A DNA stretch of 39,741 bases, from positions 1-39,741 of IMG/VR virus record IMGVR_UViG_3300022696_000062. One strand, written 5' to 3'. Below the pieces are notes generated by a model. It was not told the origin of the DNA. It did not search any database and was given only the letters and a program-made list of their open reading frames with translations. The stretch comes from a virus. Below, piece after piece: positions 100 to 38,655 of this stretch. The position numbers were made by a program, and so were the translations under genes. Each line of letters starts with the position of its first letter. The stretch's first letter is position 1.

Positions 100-390
100 A
101 GGCTGCCACTGAGGAAACTCGACGCCGAGACCTACTGACCACTCGCGAGAAGGAGATAGTACAAGCTTTTCTTGCTCGCTTCGGGAGTCAGTCTGACGAT
201 TCTCAACGATAACAGTCTCTTTAGTACCATCGGGCCGTTCTATAATTCTAGTGTCAACGCGTACCCGTTCTTGGACTTCAGTTACCGTCTTAGTCTTGAT
301 CTTCTCCGGCTTTAGGTGCCACGTTACTAGAGCCCCTAGGATAATTGCTAGTGCATAGCTCGACAAACGTATTAAGAGGGATTGCGACAT
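1..390 (-). CDS. Spanin-like inner-membrane-anchored protein (crosses the junction)
   Basis: Leftward gene starting at ATG 390 and running through position 1 into the other end of the circle. It stops at TAA 39637-39639, giving 131 aa. The AAGGA ribosome-binding site lies 8 nt before the start. Residues about 9-23 form one hydrophobic segment (YALAIILGALVTW), followed by a charged region rich in T, E, V and R. The C-terminus has alternating hydrophobic residues and ends in SYSF, like an outer-membrane beta strand. Its place at the end of the amidase-holin operon and its N-in/C-out topology suggest an inner-membrane spanin or a single-protein spanin linking both membranes. There is no lipobox, so it is not a classical u-spanin. 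The first 100 nt overlap the nuclease gene 3' end in another frame. Confidence 0.7.
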   Translation of the reverse strand, partial: MSQSLLIRLSSYALAIILGALVTWHLKPEKIKTKTVTEVQERVRVDTRIIERPDGTKETVIVENRQTDSRSEQEKLVLSPSREWSVGLGVEFPQWQPEYSVQVQRRIVLDLYAGLYYRTDGTVGALVSYS

Positions 391-679
391 AAGCCTGTTC
401 CTTATTTTTTGTAAATGCTACAGCAGGGAGGTGGCCCCCGCTATTTTCTCTGGCCTGCTCGATGGCCTTCCAGATATTAAGTTTCTCTACATTTTTACAC
501 TCGAAGCTGAACGGGTAGATCTTGCGGGCAAGTGGGCTCATTAAGAGGTCCTCACCCGGAGCGCCCATCGATGTCGAGCGTATATCGTCCGGCTCAAGTA
601 AGTCAGATGCCTTCACCAAAATATCCCGAACCAACTGTTGAAATCTCCGACCCTTCGCCTTTGCGCTCTTCGGCTTCAT
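290..679 (-). CDS. PD-(D/E)XK-type endonuclease-like protein
   Basis: Small protein of 129 aa. A basic N-terminus (KGRRFQQLVRD) is followed by GED at residues 42-44, then FECK at 59-62, giving the D/E...ExK pattern of PD-(D/E)XK nucleases, with Q75 in a following helix. That fold includes Hjc-type and other phage resolvases, so a Holliday-junction or branched-DNA role is possible but not shown. The start at 679 is chosen because AAGGAG sits 7 nt upstream; a longer frame from 736 lacks such a site. It overlaps the coiled-coil gene upstream by 77 bp and the spanin-like gene downstream by about 100 bp. It is unusual for a nuclease to sit inside a lysis operon. Confidence 0.7.
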   Translation of the reverse strand: MKPKSAKAKGRRFQQLVRDILVKASDLLEPDDIRSTSMGAPGEDLLMSPLARKIYPFSFECKNVEKLNIWKAIEQARENSGGHLPAVAFTKNKEQAYVAIPLNTFVELCTSNYPRGSSNVAPKAGEDQD

Positions 680-881
680 CTTGCATCTCCTTGATTTCTT
701 TCTTAAGCTTCCTATGCTTTTTCTGTGTTCGCTCAAAGTCCTTCTGATCCCAGAGGGCAGCTTCCATTCGATTGGCCAGCGTCTGAGCTTCTTCTATAAG
801 CCCCCCAAGATAAGAAAAGTTACGAGTCTTATAGCACTCCCGCATCTCATCTAGCACTGCACATAAAGTTCTGTTAGGCAT
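603..881 (-). CDS. Small coiled-coil protein in the lysis operon
   Basis: Product of 92 aa starting at MPNRTLC; GGTGG four bases before the ATG supports this start over an upstream one that would add an odd hydrophobic stretch. Residues about 25-70 are rich in E, K, Q and A with heptad-like spacing (EEAQTLANRMEAA, QKKHRKLKKEIKEMQ), predicting a soluble coiled coil. I recognise no enzymatic motif. It lies between the holin-like gene and the nuclease, and its 3' end is overprinted by the nuclease start. Function unknown; possibly a lysis accessory protein. Confidence 0.65.
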   Translation of the reverse strand: MPNRTLCAVLDEMRECYKTRNFSYLGGLIEEAQTLANRMEAALWDQKDFERTQKKHRKLKKEIKEMQDEAEERKGEGSEISTVGSGYFGEGI

Positions 882-937: not shown

Positions 938-1201
938 TCAAACATCATTTCTATTAATGATCTTCGCGACATCTTCAAACTTCTTATTCTTTATCCAGTC
1001 TTTTCCTAGGTTAATCAAATGCTCGCCGATGTTAGTGCTAAAGAAAGCGACGGTCCCAGTTGTAATATGACCTAACCAGTCTTCGCCCGGAATAATCCCC
1101 GTAAGTAAGAGAACAATCGCGACAGCCAGGTAGATCGACCAGGCGATGAATTTTCGGAGGCCGACGAGGAGGAACTTAAGGGTACCGAAGGATTCTTTCA
1201 T
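938..1201 (-). CDS. Holin-like small membrane protein
   Basis: 87 aa with a hydrophobic segment at about residues 18-38 (FIAWSIYLAVAIVLLLTG) and a weaker one at about 45-62, then a charged C-terminal tail (KDWIKNKKFEDVAKII). Size, topology and position directly after the amidase, with the ATG overlapping the amidase stop (ATGA), fit a phage holin that permeabilises the inner membrane. The family cannot be fixed from sequence alone; a pinholin or a non-holin membrane protein is possible. Confidence 0.65.
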   Translation of the reverse strand: MKESFGTLKFLLVGLRKFIAWSIYLAVAIVLLLTGIIPGEDWLGHITTGTVAFFSTNIGEHLINLGKDWIKNKKFEDVAKIINRNDV

Positions 1202-1656
1202 TTAAATAACCCCTTAACTGATTCTTTTACATCTTCGTACTTAACAAATAGCAGGTCGCCACGAAACTTAACCATACTAAGGTTGGGACAGGTCTTAAGA
1301 TGATCGAGTTCTGTGTGCCCCAACACGTTTTCGATGTCTATATTGTGTCGATTGATGATGGTGCGAGTAAGGGCAAGTAGGCTTTTGTACTGCTCACGAC
1401 TGGGGTCTTTGCGCCCCACCCAAACGATGCCGATACTATCTCGGTTGTGGCCCTTGACGTGTGCCCCCCGCTCAATCTCAGGCCGTCCCGCCTCGATCTT
1501 ACCGTTTCTTCGTATTACGTAGTGGTAGCCGCACGAGATTCCGCTTGGGGATAGCCAGCCCCGCTCCTTGTGCCACTCGTTTATTTCCTTGAATCCGATG
1601 TCTAGGCTGTCGTCGCTATCGGTGCAATGGATCACTATTTTCTTAATATTTCGCAT
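1198..1656 (-). CDS. N-acetylmuramoyl-L-alanine amidase (endolysin, T7 lysozyme type)
   Basis: Endolysin of 152 aa, close to the length of T7 lysozyme. It cleaves the bond between N-acetylmuramic acid and L-alanine in peptidoglycan. Amidase_2 motifs are in order: IVIHCT with H10, GYHYVI with Y44/Y46, GAHVKGHN at 64-71, GHTELD with H114, and KTCP with K121 and C123. H10, H114 and C123 match the zinc ligands and K121 the catalytic lysine of the family. No signal peptide, so release depends on the holin-like protein. The start at 1656 has AGGAGG four bases upstream; an in-frame ATG at 1671 has no such site. First gene of the leftward lysis operon. Confidence 0.93.
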   Translation of the reverse strand: MRNIKKIVIHCTDSDDSLDIGFKEINEWHKERGWLSPSGISCGYHYVIRRNGKIEAGRPEIERGAHVKGHNRDSIGIVWVGRKDPSREQYKSLLALTRTIINRHNIDIENVLGHTELDHLKTCPNLSMVKFRGDLLFVKYEDVKESVKGLFK

Positions 1657-1673
1657 AGCGCCTCCTGCCATTA

Positions 1674-1710
1674 ATTGTTCAAAATCAGTAACTTACTGAA
1701 ATTGAACAAT
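1674..1710. promoter_or_regulatory. 37-bp palindrome between the lysis and virion operons
   Basis: Two 18-bp arms around a central C at 1692: left arm 1674-1691 (attgttcaaaatcagtaa), right arm 1693-1710 (ttactgaaattgaacaat), pairing at 16 of 18 positions. A good -10 hexamer, TATACT at 1712-1717, immediately follows on the + strand, but I see no matching -35 at 17 bp. The palindrome therefore occupies the -35 region of the rightward virion promoter, as an activator or repressor site would. The amidase gene begins 18 bp to its left, so both operons could be controlled. Bases 1691-1710 recur at 35219-35238. Confidence 0.7.
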
Positions 1711-1736
1711 ATATACTACGGCCCGGGAGGTTCCCT

Positions 1737-2162
1737 ATCGCTAAAAAAGCTACAAAACGTGAACTTCTAGAGCGTGAAGAGTTTATTCTTAACGGTTTAG
1801 AGGAGTCTTGGTCGCGAAAAAAGATATGCGAAGAGATTAGTAAACGTTGGCGCGTGTCCTACAGAACGGCAGAAAAACAGTACCTTGACTGCATCAAGAA
1901 GGTTGAGGGTGAAATGTCTAAACATCGCGAAGAGATTGCCGTTAGTATTTGGAAGCGAAAGGACCTTTTGTACCGTAAGTGTGTTGCCGAACGTAAATAC
2001 AAAACGGCACTCGACGCGCTAGTAGCGATGGGTCGTATGGCAAGTCTGTACGACGGCAAGTTGTCTGAAGAGAAACAGCCAGAAGTCATCCGCGTGACCG
2101 AGAAGGATTTCGGTAACCTAAAAGCCGTGGGAGATGACAGTGGCGAAGCTTCGGAAAGCTAA
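1737..2162 (+). CDS. Terminase small subunit (probable), apparent AUC start
   Basis: Open frame giving 141 aa. The N-terminal part (KKATKRELLEREEFILNGLE, then SWSRKKICEEISKRWRVS) reads as a helix-turn-helix DNA-binding domain, as in phage TerS proteins that recognise packaging sites. A helical middle and an acidic C-terminus follow. The first canonical in-frame start is GTG 1854, which would remove the whole HTH. The frame is coding from about 1737, where ATC follows GGGAGG by exactly 6 nt, with no in-frame ATG, GTG or TTG nearby. I therefore place the start at ATC, tentatively. It overlaps the terL start by 29 bp. Confidence 0.7.
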   Translation: MAKKATKRELLEREEFILNGLEESWSRKKICEEISKRWRVSYRTAEKQYLDCIKKVEGEMSKHREEIAVSIWKRKDLLYRKCVAERKYKTALDALVAMGRMASLYDGKLSEEKQPEVIRVTEKDFGNLKAVGDDSGEASES

Positions 2163-3345
2163 CCTAGAACTCTCTAAAGCGCAGATCGAGTTCTTGTATT
2201 CTGAAGATCAGTACACTCTCTTCGCTGGAGGACTAGGGTCCGGTAAGACATACGCCGGAGCGGTTTGGGCCGTACTAATGGCCATCGAGAACCCCGACAC
2301 GGTGGGAATCATCACCGCCAACTCCTACTCCCAGCTAAAAAAGGCAACGCTCGCTAAGTTTTTTGAAATTTGTGACAGTCTTGGATTGCGGTACGTTTAT
2401 AAACAACAAGACGGTGTTATCTTACTAGGAAAGTCCACGATCTACACTATCTCCATGGAGAAGTATGATCTATTACGCGGGATTGAAGCGGGTTGGGCCT
2501 GGTCGGACGAATGCGCTTTCTATAAAGAGGAAGCTTTCAACGTCCTGATCGGTCGGATTCGAGACCCTAGAGGGACGTGCCAGTGGAAGGGAACAACAAC
2601 TCCGAACGGCCTTAATTGGGTCTATGAGATGTTCGTCGAAAACCCTAAACCCGGCACTCACGTAGTTAGAGCGAGGACGAAAGAAAACGTCGCTAATCTT
2701 GGCGCTAACTATCTTAAGACCCTCATGAGTCAGTATGACAGCAAGCTTGCACAACAGGAACTTGACGGACAGTTTGTTAACCTCAATAGCGGTAGTGTGT
2801 ACCACGCGTTTGATAGATTCAAGCACACTCGCAAGTTCGAGGAAAACTTTAACGTCCCATTATTTGTGGGCCTAGACTTTAACGTAAACCCTTTGTGCGG
2901 AGTATATGTTTACATCGTTAAGGGTGTTATCTACGTTGTGGACGAGTTGTACCTAGAGCATAGCAACACCGCCGAAGCCTCTAAGGAAATACTTAAAAGG
3001 TTTCCGTTTAGAGAAATTAAGGTTGTAGCCGATCAGTCGGGAGCAACCCGGAGTACCAAGGCATCTGTAACAGATCACGAGATACTACGTCGTCGAGGAC
3101 TGGACGTCCTAAAGTTTAGTAACCCAGAGATTAGAGACCGTTACAATAATATTAACCGATTACTAGAACATGGAAAGTTAGTTATCAGCCCCCGATGTAA
3201 AAAACTGATTGCGGACCTTGAGAAACTAACATTTGATAATAAAGACCCCATGCTATCACACATCTCTGATGCACTCGGCTACGCTTGCTGGCACCTCGAC
3301 CCACTCAAAAAGCCAAAGCGAAAAGCCTCGGTTAGCTATAGATAA
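2134..3345 (+). CDS. terL: Terminase large subunit
   Basis: Packaging motor of 403 aa. The ATPase domain has Walker A GGLGSGKT at residues 32-39 and a Walker B-like segment GWAWSDE near 125-131. The C-terminal RNase H-like nuclease domain shows VGLDFNV (about 247-253), VVADQSG (about 294-300) and HISDALGY (about 373-380), supplying the three acidic metal ligands. It cuts concatemeric DNA and pumps it through the portal. The start could be ATG 2134 or GTG 2140; GGGAG lies six bases before the GTG. Confidence 0.95.
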   Translation: MTVAKLRKANLELSKAQIEFLYSEDQYTLFAGGLGSGKTYAGAVWAVLMAIENPDTVGIITANSYSQLKKATLAKFFEICDSLGLRYVYKQQDGVILLGKSTIYTISMEKYDLLRGIEAGWAWSDECAFYKEEAFNVLIGRIRDPRGTCQWKGTTTPNGLNWVYEMFVENPKPGTHVVRARTKENVANLGANYLKTLMSQYDSKLAQQELDGQFVNLNSGSVYHAFDRFKHTRKFEENFNVPLFVGLDFNVNPLCGVYVYIVKGVIYVVDELYLEHSNTAEASKEILKRFPFREIKVVADQSGATRSTKASVTDHEILRRRGLDVLKFSNPEIRDRYNNINRLLEHGKLVISPRCKKLIADLEKLTFDNKDPMLSHISDALGYACWHLDPLKKPKRKASVSYR

Positions 3346-7175: not shown

Positions 7176-8337
7176 GCGCGATAGAGACCGGGCAGCATTT
7201 AGAGAAAATCCGAACGACGCCGGCACAGATCGACGAGTTGCCGATTTAGAAGCACACGAAAAACTTGATACCGCCAATGCCACCATAACACTTAACTCGG
7301 ACGGCAACCCATCACAACGGGTTATTATAACCGAACCAAGTCTAGCCGAGGTCCCCGGCCCCACCGACTTAACTTTAACTAAATCTGAAATACAGGAAAC
7401 CGCTTCAATCGGTACTACAATCGGAAACATTATACCAACTGGAGGCCTGGGTCCTTACACATTTACGATTACAGACGACCCAGATTCAAAGTTTGCGATA
7501 ACTGGAAACAACCTTGAGGTAAACGCCGCACTAGACTCGGACGCTTCTAATCAACACAGCGTTACAATTGAAGTTGAAGATACGAACAGCAATACTTTTG
7601 TTAAATCTTTTATAATTGATATATTACCACCAGATGCGCAGTCGGACTATATAGTTAAGCTAAATGGCATAGACGAGTCTCTCTCTACCGCAAACATTCC
7701 AGAGCTATCTTCAAATGTTGCGTGGTCAATATGTTTTACTATAATTCCTAGAAATATTAATCGCAAACAAATAATTTTTTCACAACAATCACAGTTTAGC
7801 ACAAAACGCGGACTTGAAATATACATTAATGATAATGGCAGATTAACCGCTGAATATATAGATAGCGAAACCAGCAATTTAAAATTATCTCGTAGGGTAA
7901 ACGGCATTTTAACCCCCAATGTCGCGCAATTTGTTGTTATAACATACGACGGTACCGAAGATGCGTCGGGGTTTAGCTTTCGTATTGATGATGCTGGTGG
8001 TGGTACAACAATTGTTAACAATACCGGCACGAATTTTAGTTCGTCAGATAATTTTCTTATTGGAGAAGGCAATAACAATCGCAATTTTTTGCAGGCTGAC
8101 TTAAATAACCTTTTAATTTTTAACGGAGTACTAAGTAATTCACAAATAACGACCCTGTATAACTCTGGAAGTCCGCTTGAGGATTTGTCTGGAAATCCAG
8201 GCTTGCAGCTATTTAACATACTACACGCCCCAATTACGGATATAGACGTGTACCCCACAATTACAGATCTTCGAGGAAATTACGATCTAACGATGAACGC
8301 AAATATGACGCAAAGCAATTTGGTTGAAAATATATGA
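7156..8337 (+). CDS. Cadherin-like and LamG/ConA-like lectin domain protein (head fibre candidate)
   Basis: 393 aa. Residues about 75-155 (GTTIGNIIPTGGLGPYTFTITDDP, then FAITGNNLEVNAALDSD) form a cadherin-like Ig repeat. Residues about 165-393 look like a concanavalin A-like/LamG jelly roll, with AWSICFTIIP, IYINDNGRLTAEY, FVVITYDGTEDASGFSFRIDD and a late LNNLLIFNGVLSNSQITTLYNSG, the usual LamG end. Such proteins bind glycans and decorate phage heads or fibres. The sequence is distinctly more AT-rich than the capsid gene, and placement in the head module suggests a later insertion. Confidence 0.75.
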   Translation: MAISNHKRDRDRAAFRENPNDAGTDRRVADLEAHEKLDTANATITLNSDGNPSQRVIITEPSLAEVPGPTDLTLTKSEIQETASIGTTIGNIIPTGGLGPYTFTITDDPDSKFAITGNNLEVNAALDSDASNQHSVTIEVEDTNSNTFVKSFIIDILPPDAQSDYIVKLNGIDESLSTANIPELSSNVAWSICFTIIPRNINRKQIIFSQQSQFSTKRGLEIYINDNGRLTAEYIDSETSNLKLSRRVNGILTPNVAQFVVITYDGTEDASGFSFRIDDAGGGTTIVNNTGTNFSSSDNFLIGEGNNNRNFLQADLNNLLIFNGVLSNSQITTLYNSGSPLEDLSGNPGLQLFNILHAPITDIDVYPTITDLRGNYDLTMNANMTQSNLVENI

Positions 8338-29366: not shown

Positions 29367-29622
29367 ATGGATAATCCTTATAGTAATACATTAAAACAAT
29401 TGCCACGCATATAGTGTTTAGCCCGTAGTTAAAGTGTAGGGGCGCCGCCATGATTCCTTTCATAAACAGGTACATCCAACCTAAAACTTCTCCAGAGAAC
29501 CATACCCATGCGAACCAAACTGGACGGATGGACGTCTTGCCCGTAATAAGACACTCGATAGCAAGCGATAAACCTGTTGCTGTAAGTAGCCCGTTACCTA
29601 AATATCCGATTAACTCTTCCAC
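29350..29622 (-). CDS. Small multi-pass membrane protein
   Basis: 90 aa from GTG 29622, with AAGGA about 8 bases upstream and overlap with the preceding stop. Hydrophobic spans at about 8-27 (LGNGLLTATGLSLAIECLI), 36-55 (WFAWVWFSGEVLGWMYLF) and 65-80 (YGLNTICVAIVLMYYY), with a short charged tail. Placement among replication genes is unusual for a membrane protein; membrane-level immunity, nucleotide transport or replisome anchoring are all possible. No family recognised. Confidence 0.6.
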   Translation of the reverse strand: MEELIGYLGNGLLTATGLSLAIECLITGKTSIRPVWFAWVWFSGEVLGWMYLFMKGIMAAPLHFNYGLNTICVAIVLMYYYKDYPYEKED

Positions 29623-29927
29623 CGATCATCCTTCCCAGTTTTCGTAATCTCGAAAGTAATAAGAAACATAAGCCCGCAAGCTGCATGAGCAAGATGACTA
29701 ATTCCCGATTCAGGATCTCGGCTCTCTCCCCCGAGCCAGGCAAAAATATGACGAAGCACGGCACCACTAACACGAGTCCAATTAAAACCATTTCTCCAGT
29801 TATTGTCAGCGTACTTAGTAGCGCCGAACGCCAAAACTTTTCCAATTTCATTCATCGCCTCCGCCGGTATCAGTTCCATTCTCGGTTTCCCCTGATCGTA
29901 CTTCACCGCTTTGGAAGAATTTTGCAT
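29610..29927 (-). CDS. dATP/dGTP diphosphohydrolase-like protein (DUF5664 type)
   Basis: 105 aa. KYDQGKPRMELIPAEAMNEI and FGATKYADNNWRNGF, then RVSGAVLRHIFAWLGGES and SGISHLAHAACGLMFL, are the conserved segments of the phage family described as dATP/dGTP diphosphohydrolase N-terminal. An alpha-helical, MazG-like fold is expected. Members hydrolyse purine dNTPs, changing the nucleotide pool; related enzymes occur in phages with 2-aminoadenine DNA. No PurZ-like gene is present here. The start may be 29927 or 29945; GAGAGGG nine bases before 29927 favours it. Confidence 0.75.
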   Translation of the reverse strand: MQNSSKAVKYDQGKPRMELIPAEAMNEIGKVLAFGATKYADNNWRNGFNWTRVSGAVLRHIFAWLGGESRDPESGISHLAHAACGLMFLITFEITKTGKDDRWKS

Positions 29928-30096
29928 ACCTTTTTGCCCTCTCATCTAGTAGTTGATCTAGTACTTTTTCAATCTGATCGGCGTTGATGCCGTGTCTTTC
30001 TGCTACTTTTCGGAACTGCCACTTCGTACCGTAAACTTGCTGGCTCTTGACTTGTAACCGTAACCATTGCTCGATTGGCATGTTATGTTTATTCAT
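29848..30096 (-). CDS. Hypothetical small protein
   Basis: 82 aa with GGGAGAA before the ATG. A helical body (MPIEQWLRLQVKSQQVYGTKWQFRKV, described by conserved W, Q and R; then AERHGINADQIEKVLDQLLDERAK) reads like a small helix-turn-helix, followed by a polar tail with G, T and E. DNA binding is possible. The 3' end overlaps the diphosphohydrolase gene by 80 bp. Confidence 0.55.
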   Translation of the reverse strand: MNKHNMPIEQWLRLQVKSQQVYGTKWQFRKVAERHGINADQIEKVLDQLLDERAKRYAKFFQSGEVRSGETENGTDTGGGDE

Positions 30097-30306: not shown

Positions 30307-31071
30307 TTAATCCTCCAACGCTTTAGTTCCGGGAAACTGGGACCCGCAGTCGCCACACATATATCTCTGGTATTTCTTTTTTAGCGACCGGCGCGTACCG
30401 TTACGGTGTACGTTGGTAGAGCCGCACGTTCGACATACTATATCCGCATCGGCCCAATGCTCACGGTTAGCCGCCTTGTTGCCCATGTAGGGGCGAAGTT
30501 TCATGTAAATGTCGCGCAAGACCTTTACGTCCTGTTTACAGTAGCGGTCCATAATCTCGAAGTCCTCTTTGGTGGCCTCTTTAAATGCGATGCGTTCCCA
30601 GGTGCCCCACTTATCGGGCCAGTGCATCTTCTCGGCTACCCCGAAAAACTTTGCGACGTTGTCTAGGCTGTTACTGTAGAGACTAAGCTTTGACTTTGCG
30701 ACCTGCTTGGTGTCGACGTGCTTGATCTTGTCATCGACGGGAGGGAAACCGTAGTATGCAAGTCTCGTGTTAAGGACCTTGACGTCGAACGATTTGCCGT
30801 TGTGCGTTACGATCTCGTCGGCATCATTTAGCATTTCCCATGCAAGATGTACAAGGGCGGCGTCGTCTGCCGCATCATCGCTCAACTCCCAGCTGTTAAT
30901 AGACTCTGGTGCGTCCATACCCTCGACCATGTACCCGAAACACATGATAGTCTGAAGCTGCGCCTTGAATGTACGACCGGGCCACGCTCCAATGCTGGGC
31001 AACACTTTATAATTTTCCCTTGGGTCGGGAAGGGTTTCAAGGTCCCAGTAGACCACTTTAGGCTTTTTCAT
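30307..31071 (-). CDS. DEDD 3'-5' exonuclease with C-terminal zinc ribbon
   Basis: 254 aa. ExoI is YWDLETLP with D10 and E12, ExoII HNGKSFDVKVL with D96, and ExoIII DRYCKQDVKVL with Y177 and D181, so the DnaQ-like active site is complete, of the DEDDy kind. Residues 211-243 add a zinc ribbon (CRTCGS at 213-218 and CGDCGS at 239-244), probably for nucleic-acid binding. Since the polymerase has its own proofreading domain, this is an additional nuclease for end processing, RNA primer removal or host-nucleic-acid degradation. AAAGGAAAC precedes the start at 31071; an in-frame upstream start overlaps the previous gene. Confidence 0.85.
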   Translation of the reverse strand: MKKPKVVYWDLETLPDPRENYKVLPSIGAWPGRTFKAQLQTIMCFGYMVEGMDAPESINSWELSDDAADDAALVHLAWEMLNDADEIVTHNGKSFDVKVLNTRLAYYGFPPVDDKIKHVDTKQVAKSKLSLYSNSLDNVAKFFGVAEKMHWPDKWGTWERIAFKEATKEDFEIMDRYCKQDVKVLRDIYMKLRPYMGNKAANREHWADADIVCRTCGSTNVHRNGTRRSLKKKYQRYMCGDCGSQFPGTKALED

Positions 31072-31564
31072 TTTGTTTCCTTTGTTCTCTGTTATATTCT
31101 TTTCGCATTTCATTCATCTTTACATACATACGCGCTAGGATGGCGGGCCACTCTTTAGACCAGTCGGCGTGGGATCTGCGAAGCTCATTCATTGCTTGAA
31201 CTATAATTGTCTGGCTCGCCATTTCGTAGCCCCCGATTTTAAGGGCGTCTCTCCACTCCCACTCGTTAGAGGCATCTTCCATAAACTCTTGATCGTCATC
31301 GGAGTATTCTAGAGTTTTGGTCGCTTCGGCCACCTCGAATATGCCCCGGTATAGTTGGTTATACCTGCGGTAACCCTCGATTAACATATATCCTTCAGTC
31401 TGGATGCGGTCCTCTTCCGGTATCTCTGACATCAAGTTGGCGTAATACTCATGGTAAAACTGCTCTACCCACTCACGCTCACTATCAGACAATTCATCCT
31501 CGTACTCACGGTAGTCCATCTTTTCATAAAGCAATTCGCTTATTTTCTGTTTTTTCTTCGCCAT
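31058..31564 (-). CDS. Hypothetical acidic helical protein
   Basis: 168 aa from ATG 31564, with GGAAGAG upstream. Strongly helical and charged (YREYEDELSDSEREWVEQFY, then EFMEDASNEWEWRDALKIGGYE), with W-rich segments and a basic end (EYNREQRKQNEKA). The charge pattern suggests a soluble partner protein for a replication or host protein. I recognise no family. It overlaps the HExxH gene by 25 bp and the exonuclease gene by 14 bp. Confidence 0.6.
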   Translation of the reverse strand: MAKKKQKISELLYEKMDYREYEDELSDSEREWVEQFYHEYYANLMSEIPEEDRIQTEGYMLIEGYRRYNQLYRGIFEVAEATKTLEYSDDDQEFMEDASNEWEWRDALKIGGYEMASQTIIVQAMNELRRSHADWSKEWPAILARMYVKMNEMRKEYNREQRKQNEKA

Positions 31565-32064
31565 TGTCTCTTCCACTCTTTTTGTTCTTTATTTGTTGGG
31601 TAGTCACCTGTCTGATAGTATCGCAGGTAAACCCACCTATCCAGAGCCATCTCATATTCCAGTTTCCATTTTGGAATATTCAACCTCAACTCCTTATATA
31701 TAACAGCCATGTAATCAATTGCCTTACATTCGCTGTTATAAATATGACGCCGAAGATACTTGGGAGTGGGTTTACTGACCCTAGGCCGGCGCTCCCACTC
31801 TCTTTCCCAAGCTTTATTAAGTAATATAGAATTTCCTTCTTGCATGATATGAACCCAGTCAAGATGATGCCCTAACTCGTGCAGCATTATGAAAATCTTA
31901 CAAGTGTATGACTGACCGGGCCATTCATATAATTCTATAGTTTGCGATTCATGATCGTATGTTCCGCCGGGGTCGTTCCGTTTGTAACGCTTGCGCACGA
32001 CATTGATGCCGAGACCTTTGGCGTACTTAATTACTCTATCGAACTCTTCCTGGCGGATTCCCAT
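31540..32064 (-). CDS. HExxH metallopeptidase-like protein
   Basis: 174 aa. IMLHELGHHLDWVH has the zincin motif with H62, E63 and H66; a downstream SECKAIDYMAV (E112) can supply the third zinc ligand in the style of gluzincins or ImmA/IrrE-like peptidases. Such phage enzymes may cut host regulators or process phage proteins, but no substrate can be read from sequence. Its ATG overlaps the preceding stop (TAATG). The basic C-terminus (WKRQWRRKNRK) could contact nucleic acid. This is one of two HELGH proteins in this genome. Confidence 0.75.
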   Translation of the reverse strand: MGIRQEEFDRVIKYAKGLGINVVRKRYKRNDPGGTYDHESQTIELYEWPGQSYTCKIFIMLHELGHHLDWVHIMQEGNSILLNKAWEREWERRPRVSKPTPKYLRRHIYNSECKAIDYMAVIYKELRLNIPKWKLEYEMALDRWVYLRYYQTGDYPTNKEQKEWKRQWRRKNRK

Positions 32065-33007: not shown

Positions 33008-33255
33008 TCGTTCTCCCATACTCCGAACTTGTTAATAATTCTACAACCCTTTCTAGGAATTGCTGTCACTTTTTTACTTCCAGGATAGCTTACAAAAAAA
33101 TGTTTATGCCCAACGCCCTTTAATAGGTAAACCGCGGCTTTGGTAGCAGTGACTCCCTTACTTGTAAACTTAGTTGGGCATATAACCCACGACAAGTTCG
33201 GGGTAGCCCCCGCTGTAGATGGTAAAAACATTACTAAAAACAATAATTTACTCAT
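33004..33255 (-). CDS. Small secreted protein
   Basis: 83 aa with a clear signal peptide (MSKLLFLVMFLPSTAGA, probable cleavage after AGA). The mature part, about 65 aa, is basic, with two cysteines (C in VICPTK and in RKGCRI) that could form a disulphide in the periplasm. It is the gene directly upstream of the thioredoxin-like gene and overlaps it (ATGA), so the cysteines and the redox partner may be linked. No family recognised. Confidence 0.6.
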   Translation of the reverse strand: MSKLLFLVMFLPSTAGATPNLSWVICPTKFTSKGVTATKAAVYLLKGVGHKHFFVSYPGSKKVTAIPRKGCRIINKFGVWENE

Positions 33256-33515
33256 TTACCACTCCTAGTTTTCCAGTTTCTATAATACTTAAACGCCATC
33301 TGCCTTACTCGCTCTCTAGTTACCCTATGGAGTTTAGCAACTCGATCAAGATCTTTAATCTTAATGTAGTCAAAGACCATTATAAGACCCTTTGTTCTTC
33401 TCAGTTCCTTTTCAGAGACCTTAGACATTACATAATAATACAACAATTCTTCTGGATGCGGAATAGATTTGTATTTTCTCCAATACCAGAACTTAAGTCT
33501 ATCTAGCAATGTCAT
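33252..33515 (-). CDS. Sigma-70 region 4-like helix-turn-helix protein
   Basis: 87 aa. Residues about 48-80 (DYIKIKDLDRVAKLHRVTRERVRQM) match the sigma region 4 helix-turn-helix, whose typical wording is 'the regulator finds the gene using V(S/T)RERVRQIE', followed here by a basic end FKYYRNWK. No region 2 is present, so it is not a full sigma factor. Expected role: binding -35-like DNA or the RNA polymerase flap to redirect transcription from early to late genes. It could be the partner of the 20-bp element at 1691-1710 and 35219-35238; that is inference. Confidence 0.72.
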   Translation of the reverse strand: MTLLDRLKFWYWRKYKSIPHPEELLYYYVMSKVSEKELRRTKGLIMVFDYIKIKDLDRVAKLHRVTRERVRQMAFKYYRNWKTRSGK

Positions 33516-33565: not shown

Positions 33566-33852
33566 GATTGCTCCTTGATTTTGGTAAGTGCTTTTATGGC
33601 TTCCTCATCACAATCACACCCTAACGTGTATATTTCACAGTCGTCCGTTTTGTTTTTGCTGATTATAGCCAACGCCTCAACCTCCACGGCTAAGTCAGCT
33701 TTAAGCTTCTCCACCTCCGCGCGCTTGGCATCATAAGCCGACTTTTCGATCATTTTAATCGAATCCTCAAAAAGTTTGTTGTGCGAATAAACGCCGGACT
33801 CGTATTTATTTGGGTCACTTATCCATACCTCTCTTGGCTCTTTATCACTCAC
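33562..33852 (-). CDS. Hypothetical coiled-coil protein
   Basis: 96 aa, ATG overlapping the pentapeptide gene stop. Residues about 33-68 are a heptad-like helix (MIEKSAYDAKRAEVEKLKA), followed by a Cys- and Asp-rich loop (DDCEIYTLGCDCDEEA) that may bind a metal, then a final helix. No family recognised. Confidence 0.6.
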   Translation of the reverse strand: MSDKEPREVWISDPNKYESGVYSHNKLFEDSIKMIEKSAYDAKRAEVEKLKADLAVEVEALAIISKNKTDDCEIYTLGCDCDEEAIKALTKIKEQS

Positions 33853-34379
33853 TTATCCTCCCGATCTATAGTATATGCGTGTTTAATACACATTTCAATA
33901 AATTGACCATACATCTGAATTTGTAAATCAGTATAGCCGTTTTCTTTGCCAATATCTTCGAAACAACTTGCCCACTCGTCTAATGTTTTATCTATACAAC
34001 CAATAATTAGACGATGACCCGTGCAATATGCTTGGTGTCTTTGATATCGAAAAATTAATAAGTTAGCCCCACCCAAGTTAGTCCCATGCAAGTTAGCACC
34101 ACGCAAGTTAGCCTCACGCAAGTTAGTCCCATGCAAGTTAGCACCACGCAAGTTAGCCTCACGCAAGTCAGCATCACTCAAGTCAGCCTTACACAAGTAC
34201 GCCCCACTCAAGTCAGCATCACTCAAGTCAGCCCCGTGCAAGTTAGCCTTACACAAGCCAGCCTCGCGCAAGTCAGCATCACTCAAGTCAGCCCCACTCA
34301 AGTTAGCCTTTTTACCACCTTTACCGTCTAACCAATCTTTATGGTCTTTTAGTATTTTATCCAGTTCTTTTTTAGTCAT
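33849..34379 (-). CDS. Pentapeptide-repeat protein
   Basis: 176 aa from ATG 34379, which overlaps the previous stop. About 17 repeats of the A(D/N)LXX type occupy residues about 25-110 (ANLSGADLSDADLREAG and so on), forming a right-handed quadrilateral beta helix. The C-terminal 65 residues (TGHRLIIGCIDKTLDEWASCF) are the domain that commonly follows such repeats in phage proteins. Some pentapeptide proteins mimic DNA and bind gyrase; here that is only a possibility. The DNA itself is a run of nearly identical 15-bp units. Confidence 0.88.
   Translation of the reverse strand: MTKKELDKILKDHKDWLDGKGGKKANLSGADLSDADLREAGLCKANLHGADLSDADLSGAYLCKADLSDADLREANLRGANLHGTNLREANLRGANLHGTNLGGANLLIFRYQRHQAYCTGHRLIIGCIDKTLDEWASCFEDIGKENGYTDLQIQMYGQFIEMCIKHAYTIDREDK
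34075..34310. repeat. 15-bp tandem DNA repeats inside the pentapeptide gene
   Basis: On the + strand the units are of the form CAAGTTAGCMYYRYG or CAAGTCAGC plus six bases, repeated about 15 times. They code for pentapeptide repeats on the other strand. The near identity, including third codon positions, suggests recent expansion or homogenisation by recombination. Confidence 0.8.
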
Positions 34380-34657
34380 TACCACACCGTCCTGATTTCA
34401 AGCACAGCCTTAGACAATTTGGTTTTAGGCTTAATACTAATTATCTCATCAATTTGCGGTAAAATGCCCATGCGTCTAGTCATCGCATCAATCTGTTTAT
34501 TGGTAAGCGGAAAATCGCTAACAATCCTGTACATACAGTGCTTGCTATCATGAGACCAGGCTACCATGTTCCAAGTGCCCGAATTCATAACAAAAGCGTA
34601 CCTTCTTTTTTTCTCAATCATACGCTCGTTATACATGCACCAATCATGCCAACTCAT
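34379..34657 (-). CDS. Hypothetical protein
   Basis: 92 aa, ATG overlapping the lipoprotein stop (ATGA). Short, basic N-terminal part (YNERMIEKKRRYAFVMNSGT), a region with W and H (WNMVAWSHDSKHCMYRIVSD), and a C-terminus with helix then strand. No family recognised. Encoded in the same coupled chain as the lipoprotein and the pentapeptide protein. Confidence 0.6.
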   Translation of the reverse strand: MSWHDWCMYNERMIEKKRRYAFVMNSGTWNMVAWSHDSKHCMYRIVSDFPLTNKQIDAMTRRMGILPQIDEIISIKPKTKLSKAVLEIRTVW

Positions 34658-35152: not shown

Positions 35153-35181
35153 AGGTTACTAAATCTGGGGGGCTATGTCAA
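35153..35181 (-). promoter_or_regulatory. Probable leftward early promoter
   Basis: Reading leftward, -35 TTGACA (35181-35176) is exact, the spacer is 17 bp, and -10 is TAACCT (35158-35153), a partial match. It lies just upstream of the 35132 start. The 20-bp element at 35219-35238 is about 38 bp upstream of the -35, a usual place for an activator. Confidence 0.65.
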
Positions 35182-35218: not shown

Positions 35219-35238
35219 ACTTACTGAAATTGAACAAT
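35219..35238 (+). promoter_or_regulatory. Second copy of the 20-bp virion/lysis control element
   Basis: ACTTACTGAAATTGAACAAT, identical to 1691-1710. The other arm of the palindrome seen there is missing; instead TTTCA lies on the left (35211), giving a shorter AATTTCA/TGAAATT dyad. It is followed by AT-rich DNA. It probably binds the same regulator. Confidence 0.65.
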
Positions 35239-35281
35239 TAAATACATATATTAATTTAATACCATTGAATCTGTATACAAC

Positions 35282-35299
35282 ATACTATTTAAATAGTAT
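35282..35299. repeat. Perfect 18-bp palindrome
   Basis: ATACTATTTAAATAGTAT is fully self-complementary (9-bp arms, no spacer), inside the AT-rich part of the candidate origin. Could be a dimeric protein site or cruciform. Confidence 0.75.
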
Positions 35300-35307
35300 A
35301 TCAGTAA

Positions 35308-35361
35308 ATTAATTAATATTTACTATACAGATTACTCTACTACTAGTAAATATTAATTAAT
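35308..35361. repeat. 18-bp perfect inverted repeat, 18-nt loop
   Basis: Arms 35308-35325 (attaattaatatttacta) and 35344-35361 are exact reverse complements around 18 bases. All A/T except one C/G pair, so it melts easily. Typical of a DNA unwinding element or a cruciform near an origin. No U-rich tail, so not a terminator. Confidence 0.75.
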
Positions 35362-35581
35362 ACAAACGGTCCTTCAAAAAAATCGACGGGCGGGCTTACT
35401 CCACCCAATTTCCCAAAGATGTTTCAAAAAGATGTTTTAAAAATATTCTACAAATCCTTCCCAGCACGTTCGTGCCGCAATTTGCGTCACCTTGACTAAT
35501 TTGTAGTCGGTCTTTGGGCTCGGTCATTATTAGTCGGAATTATAGGGAAGGGGGCTCTACTCCATCTCATATCCAAGCCGG

Positions 35582-35621
35582 AATCTCATATTGGGACACT
35601 ATAATGTCCCGATTTGAGACA
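35582..35621. promoter_or_regulatory. Paired 17-bp operator-like sites facing each other
   Basis: Two members of the TGTMTCA-N3-TGAKACA family in opposite orientation: 35582-35598 (AATCTCATATTGGGACA) and 35605-35621 (TGTCCCGATTTGAGACA), separated by six bases. Together they make a larger dyad, 13 of 15 pairs matching. Likely site for a dimer of dimers. Confidence 0.6.
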
Positions 35622-35932
35622 AACCCATCGGGGGGACCACCTCCACACTACCCCTTCAGAGGCCCGTATCGCCCCGTCACGAGGTCCTACCAGTCCACCC
35701 ATACCTAGGTATACCCCCAGTCAATACGTCCAACACGGAGCATTTTCGTAAGCCGTAACATGATGAGACAGCAAGAGTCCCCCGTTATAGGCCCTGACAG
35801 GCTCACCACGATGTTTATATCCTCAACCCACACTAGACCCTAGGTCTGGATATAAGTCCCCGTATAGGCCCGATATGAGCGCCTCACGTCCAATTCTACA
35901 TAACTTATTGAAAATACGTACCACCACCTTTC

Positions 35933-35949
35933 TGTCTCAATATGACAAA
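35933..35949. promoter_or_regulatory. 17-bp operator-like site
   Basis: TGTCTCAATATGACAAA, family TGTMTCA-N3-TGAKACA; left half exact, right half weaker. A further half site TGAGACA lies at 35764-35770. Confidence 0.5.
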
Positions 35950-36035
35950 GTTCTTGCATGGGTATAGGATAGCGTTTAGACGTACCAATAGCCGCCCATA
36001 TACACCGAAACCCGACCACTATACCAGTATTCGGG

Positions 36036-36107
36036 CTATATGGTTAATAGTTCTAGGCAGTCCCCCGAGTATACCCAAGGGACTGGAAGAGCTATTAACG
36101 GCTATAT
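36036..36107. ncRNA. Large imperfect hairpin, possible structured RNA or DNA element
   Basis: GTTAATAG (36043-36050) pairs with CTATTAAC (36092-36099), and inside it CAGTCCC (36058-36064) pairs with GGGACTG (36079-36085), around a 14-nt loop. Outer flanks CTATAT and ATATAG extend the symmetry less exactly. Two co-linear stems separated by internal loops are more than expected by chance. It lies after the 42-aa gene (leftward) and could be a transcript end, an RNA, or part of the origin. Confidence 0.4.
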
Positions 36108-36141
36108 TCTAAAGCTTTATCGTAGATCAGTCGATTTAACT

Positions 36142-36270
36142 TTATGGACTGGTTGACTCGACTTGCCAGCCTTGGTTTTCGAACGTGTCTAGAATCGATC
36201 GTGTATTTATGAAACCGTACGTTTCGCGGTCGGTTAGTGCTTTAGTTTGATCAATTGGATTGATAGACAT
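36142..36270 (-). CDS. Short protein, possibly a truncated DUF932-like N-terminus
   Basis: 42 aa with AAAGGGGG five bases before the ATG. MSINPIDQTKALTDRETYGF, then INTRSILDTFENQGWQVEST. The pattern 'Y-F-I-x-T-x-x-I/V-L-D-x-F/L-x-x-x-G-W' resembles the start of DUF932 phage/plasmid proteins, which are usually about 250-350 aa, so the remainder is missing. Just after the stop, the +1 frame reads on for some residues, but no long continuation exists. It is either a decayed remnant or a genuine small protein. Last gene of its operon. Confidence 0.55.
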   Translation of the reverse strand: MSINPIDQTKALTDRETYGFINTRSILDTFENQGWQVESTSP

Positions 36271-36281
36271 ATAGTCCCCCT

Positions 36282-36773
36282 TTATTGGTTAACAATTGTT
36301 AATTTAGTTTCAATAGTCTCCGGTATCTTTAAAGACTTTAGTCCCGTCGCAAGTTTAGCAAGTTCTAGACCTGTATACCAGTCTGAACTATAACCGTCGC
36401 TTGACACTTCGACCTGTCCCTTTAAATAATGCTTTAGGACTATAAGACATGCGACCACGACCGTGTCGTAGGGCTTTCGTGCCGTTTTACAGAATTCGAA
36501 ACTACTATTTTCCGAGTAGTGCTCTCTTAAAACAAAGTCTTCGTGTCCTAATTCTTTAGTGCCGTTAAAGTTTAGGCCGCCGTATTTTCCGGGCTTCGTG
36601 TGAGCACTATAGCCTGAAAGTCTATCTGGATGCTTTAAGTCTATCATTTTCATTCTATCATTATAGAACTTGACTATTTGCTGGCATTTAACTATAGCCT
36701 TTTGATAGTCGCTTTCAACTCTACTACTGTTACCGTGACTGGTTTTAAATCTTATATAGTGTGTATGGCCCAT
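36282..36773 (-). CDS. Conserved-type phage protein, unknown function
   Basis: 163 aa. The start MGHTHYIRFKTSHGNSSRVE, then a region with FNGTKELGHEDFVL and FCKTARKPYDTVVVACLIVLKH, is a layout I associate with a widespread phage protein family beginning MGHTHYW-like and of unknown function. Mixed alpha/beta with several His, no classical catalytic motif. AAAGGGGGACTAT precedes the ATG, the same leader as the gene to its left. Confidence is for a real gene. Confidence 0.7.
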   Translation of the reverse strand: MGHTHYIRFKTSHGNSSRVESDYQKAIVKCQQIVKFYNDRMKMIDLKHPDRLSGYSAHTKPGKYGGLNFNGTKELGHEDFVLREHYSENSSFEFCKTARKPYDTVVVACLIVLKHYLKGQVEVSSDGYSSDWYTGLELAKLATGLKSLKIPETIETKLTIVNQ

Positions 36774-36784
36774 ATAGTCCCCCT

Positions 36785-36973
36785 TTACGCCGCTTTGGAC
36801 GTGTTAATAGTTTTTTTCACGAAACCGCTTTCATCATGTTTAGCTTTCCCTTTAGCTTTCAATGCAACAATATACCCGCCACGTTTATCTAGAAAGCGCA
36901 AGTCGTGGCTGTCCCCGTTATAAGCGCATAATAAGACCGCCCGAGGATAACCCCCGAGCGGTCCGATATAAGC
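36785..36973 (-). CDS. Coding-like in-frame extension after the metallopeptidase stop
   Basis: The frame of the HELGH gene stays open for 62 more codons after its TAA (36974-36976), up to TAA 36785. The stretch CAYNGDSHDLRFLDKRGGYI, then VALKAKGKAKHDESGFVKKT, looks like real protein. No ATG or GTG starts it; an internal TTG would give about 38 aa. A hairpin (36935-36963) lies between the TAA and this stretch. It could be made by stop-codon readthrough, by a non-standard start, or be a remnant. Translation not established. Confidence 0.4.
   Translation of the reverse strand, partial: AYIGPLGGYPRAVLLCAYNGDSHDLRFLDKRGGYIVALKAKGKAKHDESGFVKKTINTSKAA
36935..36963 (-). terminator. GC-rich hairpin after the HELGH gene
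   Basis: GACCGCCCGAGG (36935-36946) pairs imperfectly with the segment ending in CGAGCGGTC at 36963, about 10 of 12 pairs, around a short loop. No T-run on the leftward strand, so a poor intrinsic terminator. It starts 11 bp after the HELGH stop and may instead affect readthrough or RNA stability. Confidence 0.4.
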
Positions 36974-37639
36974 TTATCGAGTTGCCTTAAGTCTCGCCCG
37001 TCGATTGATGCGAGCGTCGATCGAATCGGACTCGGTCCACCCAACGCTCGGGTTATAAACCAACTCGCCGTTATCGATCATTTGGAGCCTATCAAGACAC
37101 CCTTTGTCGAGGTTTCTTGATAACCGAATAAGCTCACGGTCCCCAACGATAACCCCGTAACGCTCTCCGGTCTCAACGCAAGTCCGTGGTTTATCCTTAA
37201 GGGGCAGTCCTGTAGAGTAGGCCGGTAGACCTAAGCGTCGACGAATTTTATTTTCCATGGCCATTGGTAAAATCTCAAAAAGAGACGATTTTTGTTTCAT
37301 ATACCCGTACTCTGATATAACATAACCGAATTGAGAATCCATCTCGTTTTGATACATCTTAAGCGGTGCATTGGATAAGAATAAGTGTCCCAATTCATGA
37401 ACCGCCGCGTCCGGGTTAGGCTCGAACTCTAGATGACCGGTCCCCCAATCGGGTTTTTTGATAAACTTGCCGGACTTATTCAACTTGCCGGGCGTGACTC
37501 GGGCCGATAAACCGAATCGATCACCTAGATAATTGATAATATGATTTATATGTTTTTGTCTCATATTGGAACGACTTGAGGGGCTCGACTTGGAACCCCA
37601 CACCTGTTTCATTCTGATACGTTTATTTTTGCTCGCCAT
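36974..37639 (-). CDS. HExxH metallopeptidase-like protein (second)
   Basis: 221 aa with GAGGGGG before the ATG. A very basic N-terminus (MASKNKRIRMKQVWGSK), then AAVHELGHLFLSN with H81, E82 and H85. A following helix (SSLFEILPMAMENKIRRRLG) has acidic residues that could give the third zinc ligand. Not similar to the other HELGH protein beyond this motif. Putative zincin; substrate unknown. C-terminal part ends in a basic helix (DARINRRARLKATR). The frame continues as coding-like after its stop. Confidence 0.7.
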   Translation of the reverse strand: MASKNKRIRMKQVWGSKSSPSSRSNMRQKHINHIINYLGDRFGLSARVTPGKLNKSGKFIKKPDWGTGHLEFEPNPDAAVHELGHLFLSNAPLKMYQNEMDSQFGYVISEYGYMKQKSSLFEILPMAMENKIRRRLGLPAYSTGLPLKDKPRTCVETGERYGVIVGDRELIRLSRNLDKGCLDRLQMIDNGELVYNPSVGWTESDSIDARINRRARLKATR

Positions 37640-37640
37640 G

Positions 37641-38027
37641 TTACACCCCCTCGGCTACATAATAACGGCCCGTTGCCGGGTCCAACGTCCATGCGTCTAA
37701 CGCGTCGGCCCGGTCCCTAGACACCTCGACCCACTGCCCAAGCTCGGTCCTTGAACCTGAATCGATATATTCTAAGAACGCAGACCGATCGGGCCTTAAG
37801 AATAAAATTGACTCTTGATAAGCCGCCCGAGCGCATAATAACGCCCGTCTATAATCCTCTAGTGACTTGGTTATAATAAGATAACTGTTTTCAGTCTCAC
37901 CCTTATAAGACCCTATAAGCGCTTTAAAATGATCAATGCCGTACGATCTAATAAACTTATAATCATCCTTATAGGTCCCTTGATTCACTGCTATAATAAC
38001 GCATGGTGGAAAGTTTAATTGTCTCAT
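37641..38027 (-). CDS. Hypothetical protein
   Basis: 128 aa with AAGGGGG seven bases before the ATG. Alpha/beta with a beta start (LNFPPCVIIAVNQGTYKDD), helices (YRRALLCARAAYQESILFL) and a C-terminal segment resembling small domains with DAWTLDPATGRYYVAEGV. No family recognised. Followed within 1 bp by the HELGH gene. Confidence 0.65.
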   Translation of the reverse strand: MRQLNFPPCVIIAVNQGTYKDDYKFIRSYGIDHFKALIGSYKGETENSYLIITKSLEDYRRALLCARAAYQESILFLRPDRSAFLEYIDSGSRTELGQWVEVSRDRADALDAWTLDPATGRYYVAEGV

Positions 38028-38043
38028 AATGATACCCCCTTAA

Positions 38044-38376
38044 TTAACGGTCATAATATAAGTCATGATAATAATCGGCCATGGCAGATAATCGATCGGC
38101 CTCTAGGTCTAGGTAATCAGCGCAATCGGTCGCATAATCCAGCATGGGATCTAAAATCTTCGCCTCAATTTCCCCGTCTAGGTCTTGACCCGTTACAACG
38201 TAGCCGATCGACCCCTCGGGCTCTGCATAATAACCCGGGTCCTCAAACGTATAATAAAACGATAAGATAACCCACACCTCGCCGTTGTCTGGGTTATTAG
38301 AATCATACAGCCGACCCTTAACATACGTTCGATCAACGATTGATAACTCATCAATAATCCAATTATTTTTCACCAT
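38044..38376 (-). CDS. Hypothetical acidic protein
   Basis: 110 aa with GAGGGGG six bases before the ATG. Starts with beta strands (WIIDELSIVDRTYVKGRLYD, EVWVILSFYYTFEDPGYYA) and ends in a helix with many D, Y and L (LDLEADRLSAMADYYHDLYY). Strongly acidic. No family recognised. Transcribed from the 38655 gene downward. Confidence 0.65.
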   Translation of the reverse strand: MVKNNWIIDELSIVDRTYVKGRLYDSNNPDNGEVWVILSFYYTFEDPGYYAEPEGSIGYVVTGQDLDGEIEAKILDPMLDYATDCADYLDLEADRLSAMADYYHDLYYDR

Positions 38377-38449
38377 TATGCACCCCCTCTATAATTAAAT
38401 TAATATAACATAACATTATAAACATGGATAACGCGTATATTATAATCAT
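38363..38449 (-). CDS. 28-aa hydrophobic miniprotein
   Basis: ATG 38449 overlaps the stop of the preceding gene (ATGA) and has AAGGGGG four bases upstream. Predicted MIIIYALSMFIMLCYINLII, then EGVHNGEK: one transmembrane segment with a short polar tail. Its 3' end overlaps the start of the next gene by 14 bp and contains that gene's ribosome-binding site. Short but carries the same signals as its neighbours. Any function unknown. Confidence 0.5.
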   Translation of the reverse strand: MIIIYALSMFIMLCYINLIIEGVHNGEK

Positions 38450-38655
38450 AACGCCCCCTTAATTATGCCTACCTCAACTTGTGACAGTTCAGTTGCGCTG
38501 ATTCGGCTAGCCTTAAGAACCTTAACGTCCCGAACATGTACAGTCTTGCCTTGCGCCCGGTGGTATTGAACGATTAGATCAGCGATTTCATTTTCAACGT
38601 GTAACTGAACTTCGTATGTATCGTTTTGTAGGTCTTGGATTAGTATGTTCTTCAT
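38446..38655 (-). CDS. Hypothetical protein, first gene of the AGGGGG cassette
   Basis: 69 aa with AAGGGGG five bases before the ATG. Helix-rich and acidic start (MKNILIQDLQNDTYEVQLHVENEI), then YHRAQGKTVHVRDVKVLKASRI. No recognised motif. Being the first gene after the 38.7-38.9 kb control region, it should be the earliest expressed in its cassette. Confidence 0.65.
   Translation of the reverse strand: MKNILIQDLQNDTYEVQLHVENEIADLIVQYHRAQGKTVHVRDVKVLKASRISATELSQVEVGIIKGAL

Follow-up and report, generated by a model that had tools for sequence, protein, structure and literature searches.

What is a long palindrome doing between the divergent lysis and virion genes of a phage, and why does half of it recur at the edge of the early genes? 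We asked this of IMG/VR record IMGVR_UViG_3300022696_000062, positions 1–39,741; the full stretch of 39,741 nucleotides is called the window here. It is a siphovirus-like genome, circularly assembled, and its record ends overlap by 99 bp. The rightward genes encode terminase, portal, capsid, tape measure and tail fibre, the leftward genes encode DNA polymerase, helicase-primase, Erf and nucleases, and the lysis cassette, also leftward, starts with an amidase. Cultured phages are distant from the window (at most 33% identity in TerL, about 30% in DNA polymerase), and its conserved tail protein had no match among them. Relatives were drawn from IMG/VR by TerL, mostly at about 49–64% identity; close relatives were absent from the search, the best TerL having about 63–64% identity, and a TerL search of GTDB genomes returned zero relatives. 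The divergence of amidase (−) and terS (+) is kept across the 21 relatives compared. Their intergenic region is short, and the sequence itself is not conserved. In the window, the locus is laid out as follows.

1198–1656, minus strand: N-acetylmuramoyl-L-alanine amidase, lysis (Pfam Amidase_2 3.6e-20, PHROG 822)
1661–1666, minus strand: Shine-Dalgarno of the amidase gene (from sequence)
1664–1691, minus strand: leftward unit, TTACTGATTTTGAACAAT then TAATGG, predicted promoter of the amidase/lysis operon (from sequence and relatives)
1674–1710, no strand: 37-bp palindrome, two back-to-back 18-bp half-units (TTACTGAWWTTGAACAAT) flanking C1692 (from sequence and simulation)
1693–1720, plus strand: rightward unit, TTACTGAAATTGAACAAT plus the −10 TATACT, predicted terS/virion promoter (from sequence and corresponding units in relatives)
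1725–1730, plus strand: Shine-Dalgarno of terS, GGGAGG (from sequence)
1737–2162, plus strand: terminase small subunit with an ATC start codon (from an alignment of 22 TerS)
2134–3345, plus strand: terminase large subunit, the query for relatives (PHROG 2, 1.8e-44)

The palindrome and its copy at the early divergence

Positions 1674–1710 read ATTGTTCAAAATCAGTAACTTACTGAAATTGAACAAT, a 37-bp palindrome of the form ATTGTTCAAAATCAGTAA-C-TTACTGAAATTGAACAAT, and the 16 of 18 pairs around C1692 that the initial annotation had counted were found again. It is the sole palindrome in the window with at least 16/18 pairs and a gap of 0–3. Neither such a palindrome nor a 20-mer repeat of the kind described below arose in 60 genomes simulated with local base composition (local-Markov). 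The TATACT −10 at 1712–1717 adjoins the right end of the palindrome and predicts a rightward start at about 1724. The leftward −10 is weak in the window (TTAATG) and better in relatives, as in L013 and L044 (ACAGCT-TATAAT and GAC-TATACT, respectively).

The right-hand 20 bp of the palindrome, ACTTACTGAAATTGAACAAT, recur exactly at 35219–35238 on the same strand. Outside the 15-nt tandem repeats (34060–34320) and the 99-bp end overlap, no other 20-mer is repeated in the genome, and a search of IMG/VR for the exact 20-mer found no occurrence elsewhere. The copy lies at the divergence from which the early genes run leftward.

35153–35181, minus strand: leftward early promoter, divergent from P2, with TTGACA at 35181–35176, a 17-bp spacer and TAACCT at 35158–35153 (from sequence)
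35219–35238, plus strand: P2, the exact 20-bp copy of the rightward half-unit, in the same orientation (from sequence)

P2 has the same orientation as the rightward late promoter and is directed away from the early promoter, whose −35 is 37 bp off. The AT-rich DNA after it holds −10-like words (TAAATA 35239–35244, TATATT 35247–35252); the −10 of P2 is weak. An exact copy adjoining the leftward early promoter had been annotated correctly, but it does not face that promoter. The further proposal that it controls early transcription is unsupported, because the copy points away from the promoter; the copies in L013, L022 and L026, described next, are also directed outward and have an outward −10.

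For the eight genomes with a locatable early divergence, we judged the longest word common to this region and the terS intergenic region against shuffles. It measured 20 bp in the window, 22 bp in L013 (ACTTTAACAGCTATATATAGTA, arm plus −10), 12 bp in L022 (GACCATAATAAG, −10 included) and 11 bp in L026 (TGGAATATATT, −10 included), with a combined P of 1.6e-6 over the eight genomes. The shuffle test gave no significant second copy in L043 or L044. A look-alike picked out by eye in L007 (TTGACATTAATGAACATATATAAGTATAGGGG) is weaker and not significant (P 0.19), and the nominal match in L029 (P 0.017) does not correspond to an arm. The second copy of the window, L013, L022 and L026 is single, runs in the direction of terS and adjoins the early operon. 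In three of these four (L013, L022 and L026) the −10 is inside the copy and belongs to the outward promoter, while the window's copy consists of the recognition sequence without a −10. Since the second copies are single and three of four carry a −10, the functional unit seems to be the half and not the dyad.

These observations bear on an alternative in which the palindrome is the operator of a dimeric phage regulator, in the simplest case an early repressor that shuts both divergent late promoters. We regard this as possible but doubtful. The near-perfect dyad over 37 bp is what such a regulator would bind, and the copy at 35219 would then be a weaker half-operator. In the 37-bp register, the left part of P2 does place AATTTCA opposite TGAAATT and 9 of 18 dyad pairs are retained overall (P about 0.06); this partial symmetry, together with the missing −10, keeps the operator reading in play for the window. 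The single, −10-bearing second copies of L013, L022 and L026 argue against it, as the dyad is not present at every site. No conserved repressor gene was found among the early genes compared, and no repressor or lysogeny gene was recognised among the proteins scanned. Operators of the lambda OR/OL type are dyad-symmetric sites at divergent promoters, and their specificity varies between relatives; they differ from the present case in that the second copies in relatives are lone halves with the −10 inside.

Arms in relatives and the −35 position

Many relatives carry inverted arms of their own, unrelated in sequence, between amidase and terS. The arms lie just upstream of, or merge into, an outward TATA-type −10 on both sides.

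L013: AGCTGT-25-ACAGCT, continuing as ACAGCT-ATATATAGT on the right and ACAGCT-TATAAT on the left
L004: AGCTAC-25-GTAGCT
L023: ACTGAA-25-TTCAGT
L015: CTGTTC-23-GAACAG
L024: TATAGAAC-22-GTTCTATA
L018: AGGGTC-36-GACCCT
L022: TATTATGGTC...GACCATAATA
L021: TATATAGACTC...GAGTCTATATA
L044: ATAGTATAGTC-9-GACTATACTAT, with the −10 inside the arm

Jointly these inverted repeats exceed shuffles (Fisher P 1.7e-5), most individual loci not being significant. At 8 of 21 loci the arms are at least 6 bp long and span 35–38 bp from outer edge to outer edge (scan-corrected P 0.01), a generous count in that L001, L007 and L022 reach the span via other, inner repeats; the 37-bp spacing recurs in about six loci. 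The most informative pair is L013 and L004, which differ by five substitutions in 37 bp (positions 5, 6, 31, 32 and 33). All five fall in the arms, where they make up two compensated pairs and one newly gained pair, and the inner 25 bp are almost identical. Judged from this alignment, the arms change together. Compensated changes would also be expected of a site for a dimer, and the outer span of 35–38 bp that several relatives share, their arm centres lying some three helical turns from each other, would suit an operator as well; the inner gaps of other relatives, which vary widely (9, 22, 23, 36 and 80 nt), would not. Whatever reads it, the palindrome is a genuine regulatory element and not a chance sequence: it is repeated in the genome, and elements of its type are found again in relatives.

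Upstream of the window's TATACT, the best −35 at a spacing of 16–18 matches TTGACA at 3 of 6 positions, in agreement with the initial annotation, which had placed the element where a −35 should be. The terS promoters with arms have a best −35 of 2–4/6, L012 combining arms with a TTGTCA that reaches 5/6 if a 15-bp spacer is allowed. In contrast, the arm-less relatives L005, L007, L011, L016, L027 and L029 mostly have a −35 of 5–6/6 (TTGACA/TTGTCA). With the two groups assigned by eye, because automatic arm calling was too permissive in AT-rich DNA, and with L019 and L026 left out for want of room for a −35, the difference gave a Mann-Whitney P of 0.0007, or 0.004 without near relatives. A poor −35 alongside arms is the pattern expected if the arms serve an activator or sigma factor that replaces −35 recognition. 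It is unexpected for an operator laid over a sigma70 promoter, since a repressed sigma70 promoter should keep a good −35.

Ordinary bidirectional promoters of the host sigma70, in which symmetric elements would give divergent transcription with no phage factor, are an improbable explanation. Pseudo-symmetric promoters of this kind are common in E. coli, where the symmetry gives divergent transcription from a shared −10 and starts lie mostly 10–23 bp apart (PMC12825309). L019 and L026, with a single palindromic GAATAT(AT)ATTC between amidase and terS, could be accommodated in this way. The window differs in having two separate units with predicted starts about 60 bp apart, and host promoters would leave the lineage-specific arms, the copy at the early divergence and the missing −35 unexplained. 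That the palindrome is instead a nucleic-acid hairpin serving as a replication or packaging signal is very improbable. The DNA beyond P2 does recall a transcription-primed origin, with 130 very AT-rich base pairs that contain inverted repeats and with about 1 kb of non-coding sequence. However, both predicted starts are downstream of the palindrome, which would hence be in neither late RNA, and the single second copies could not form the hairpin.

A proposed late-promoter unit and the search for its factor

We therefore return to the promoter-unit reading, to which we give about an even chance: the palindrome would contain a phage-specific late-promoter unit twice, back to back, each taking the place of a −35, and P2 would be a third copy. 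The sequences compared show directly the palindrome and its copy, the constancy of position, the joint change of the arms and the poor −35; from these we infer promoter function for the units, their recognition by a phage factor and their late use. Of the paired units, one would drive the lysis genes leftward and the other terS and the virion genes rightward, while P2 at 35219–35238 would fire right, away from the early genes. Each would consist of a −10 preceded by a lineage-specific recognition sequence (in the window, TTACTGAWWTTGAACAAT), which would sit where RNA polymerase otherwise reads the −35. Host sigma70 would read the early genes from TTGACA-17-TAACCT. An early phage protein would then bring host RNA polymerase to all three units; it could be an activator or sigma remodeller comparable to T4 MotA, or alternatively a sigma factor encoded by the phage. 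If the specificity of this factor shifted in evolution, all units of a genome would change together and the palindrome would stay symmetric. Because relatives keep the positions and yet each has its own signal sequence, a viral factor probably switches on the late genes. The activator or sigma-like factor that had been suggested for the window is thereby upheld in part, in that the element behaves across the group as a phage-specific promoter or regulator signal common to several units.

There are precedents for such an arrangement. In T4 middle promoters, a MotA box at about −30 replaces the −35 and is paired with a sigma70-type −10 (PMC2988021), the distance to a good −10 being about 12 bp; similarly, the window has a phage-specific element in the −35 region of a good −10 (TATACT, −35 match 3/6). 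T4, however, has about 60 copies of a 9–10 bp box, whereas here there are three long copies, two of them back to back, and the window's element lacks the TGCTT of the MotA box consensus (a/t)(a/t)(a/t)TGCTTtA (PMC2988021). The promoters of phiEco32 and 7-11 that are read by phage sigma factors (phi32_gp36 and SaPh711_gp47) are few and, within a genome, well conserved, and they differ in sequence between the two phages (tAATGTAtA versus GTAAtg-16-aCTA) at similar genome positions (PMC8948821, PMC4331800). The window's group likewise has few conserved copies upstream of late genes, with the position kept and the sequence changing among relatives. Unlike it, phiEco32 and 7-11 are podoviruses with a recognised sigma gene, and palindromic pairing of their promoters is not described in the passages drawn on here. 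By analogy, the system resembles the T4 MotA and phiEco32/7-11 promoters in how it would work.

Which protein could be the factor? The window gave no sigma70-family match (PF04542, PF04545); a strongly diverged sigma factor is possible. The scan of large window ORFs gave matches to DNA polymerase, helicase-primase, nucleases, terminase, capsid and tail proteins, and none to a single-subunit, T7-type RNA polymerase, so host polymerase is probably redirected. MotA and AsiA had no match in Pfam and PHROG scans covering part of the early ORFs. The early genes common to the group encode replication proteins, a dATP/dGTP diphosphohydrolase (29610–29945) and a few unknown proteins, and those compared across the group include no shared regulator gene.

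The initial annotation had put forward one early product as the regulator.

33252–33515, minus strand: 87-aa early protein with a sigma-region-4-like helix-turn-helix, not conserved in the group

Its helix-turn-helix is weakly like sigma region 4.2 (best E 0.19), and all but one of its PDB matches are sigma factors. We rejected this candidate: it had no relative in 12 phage records or in the IMG/VR scan and no Pfam match even at E 10, and its model has a pLDDT of 62. The conserved early protein at 31058–31576 was also set aside, with no PHROG family, no Pfam family above cut-off and a low-confidence model (pLDDT 60). One relative, G005, does encode a predicted phage sigma factor, a 168-aa early protein (L038 8327–8833) that matches sigma70 region 2 in Pfam (E 3.2e-6) and, weakly, region 4; despite this gene, its late promoter has TTGACA and no arms. 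As the arms are lineage-specific, the factor may be fast-evolving.

More tentatively still, and with considerable doubt, we suggest that an apparently uncultured, widespread siphovirus group runs its late genes by fast-changing, divergent palindromic units together with a specificity factor of unrecognised type, distinct from detectable sigma factors, from MotA/AsiA and from phage RNA polymerases. Should the factor prove not to be a sigma, host RNA polymerase would be redirected in a new way. Once it is known, the relatives' paired units would be natural specificity variants for studying co-evolution of factor and site. The scheme offers a concrete and testable outline of transcription in a phage group for which metagenomes are almost the only source here, and the terS/lysis divergence is a marker.

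Start codons, repeats and non-coding stretches

Several observations concern the same regions. The start codon of terS is ATC in the window (1737–1739), L013 (9529), L004 (580) and L022 (4947) and ATT in L001 (3268); the aligned position is ATG in 16 relatives and TTG in one. A Shine-Dalgarno-like sequence precedes each ATC or ATT start by a few nucleotides, and in-frame alternatives are absent except for a TTG abutting the Shine-Dalgarno in L013 and L004. Start codons of the ATC/ATT type are rare (infC, pcnB), and their use may limit terS expression. In L012, L018, L021 and L024 the terS ATG lies 0–8 nt after the predicted −10, a spacing that suggests a leaderless terS mRNA. Upstream of their −10s, distant relatives have direct repeats that recur every 11 bp (ACTTACAC; TTGCA in L001), like tandem activator sites (L013 9448–9510, L038 about 7960–8000, L001 3180–3215).

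Beyond the early-divergence region, five divergent genomes have 0.6–1.2 kb without clear coding potential (window 35239–36281; G001 35820–36660; G005 7275–7913; G004 1–1123; G021 39700–40900). These stretches have no common sequence or RNA fold, and no Rfam match where searched. We considered a structured RNA after P2 and rejected it, there being no Rfam match and a fold z near zero in relatives. In the window's stretch only the two ends fold well; a strong hairpin, GTTAATAGTTCTAGGCAGTCCC...GGGACTGGAAGAGCTATTAAC, lies at about 36040–36110 near the far end (z −4.7 in a 250-nt fold window, plus strand). The AT-rich 130 bp at the start of the stretch are a possible transcription-primed origin.

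Three further genes also deserve mention. A protein of the S-adenosylmethionine lyase family (37641–38027, minus strand; PF23780 7e-12) is encoded in a separate leftward operon (36282–38655) and is likely an early anti-restriction function. The 15-nt tandem repeats at 34060–34320 (minus strand) lie in an ORF (33849–34385) with relatives in G004 and G023, and its repeat pattern is consistent with a pentapeptide-repeat protein. Finally, the lysis operon includes a RusA-like Holliday junction resolvase (290–736, minus strand; PHROG 244, 1e-19), which is kept in most relatives.
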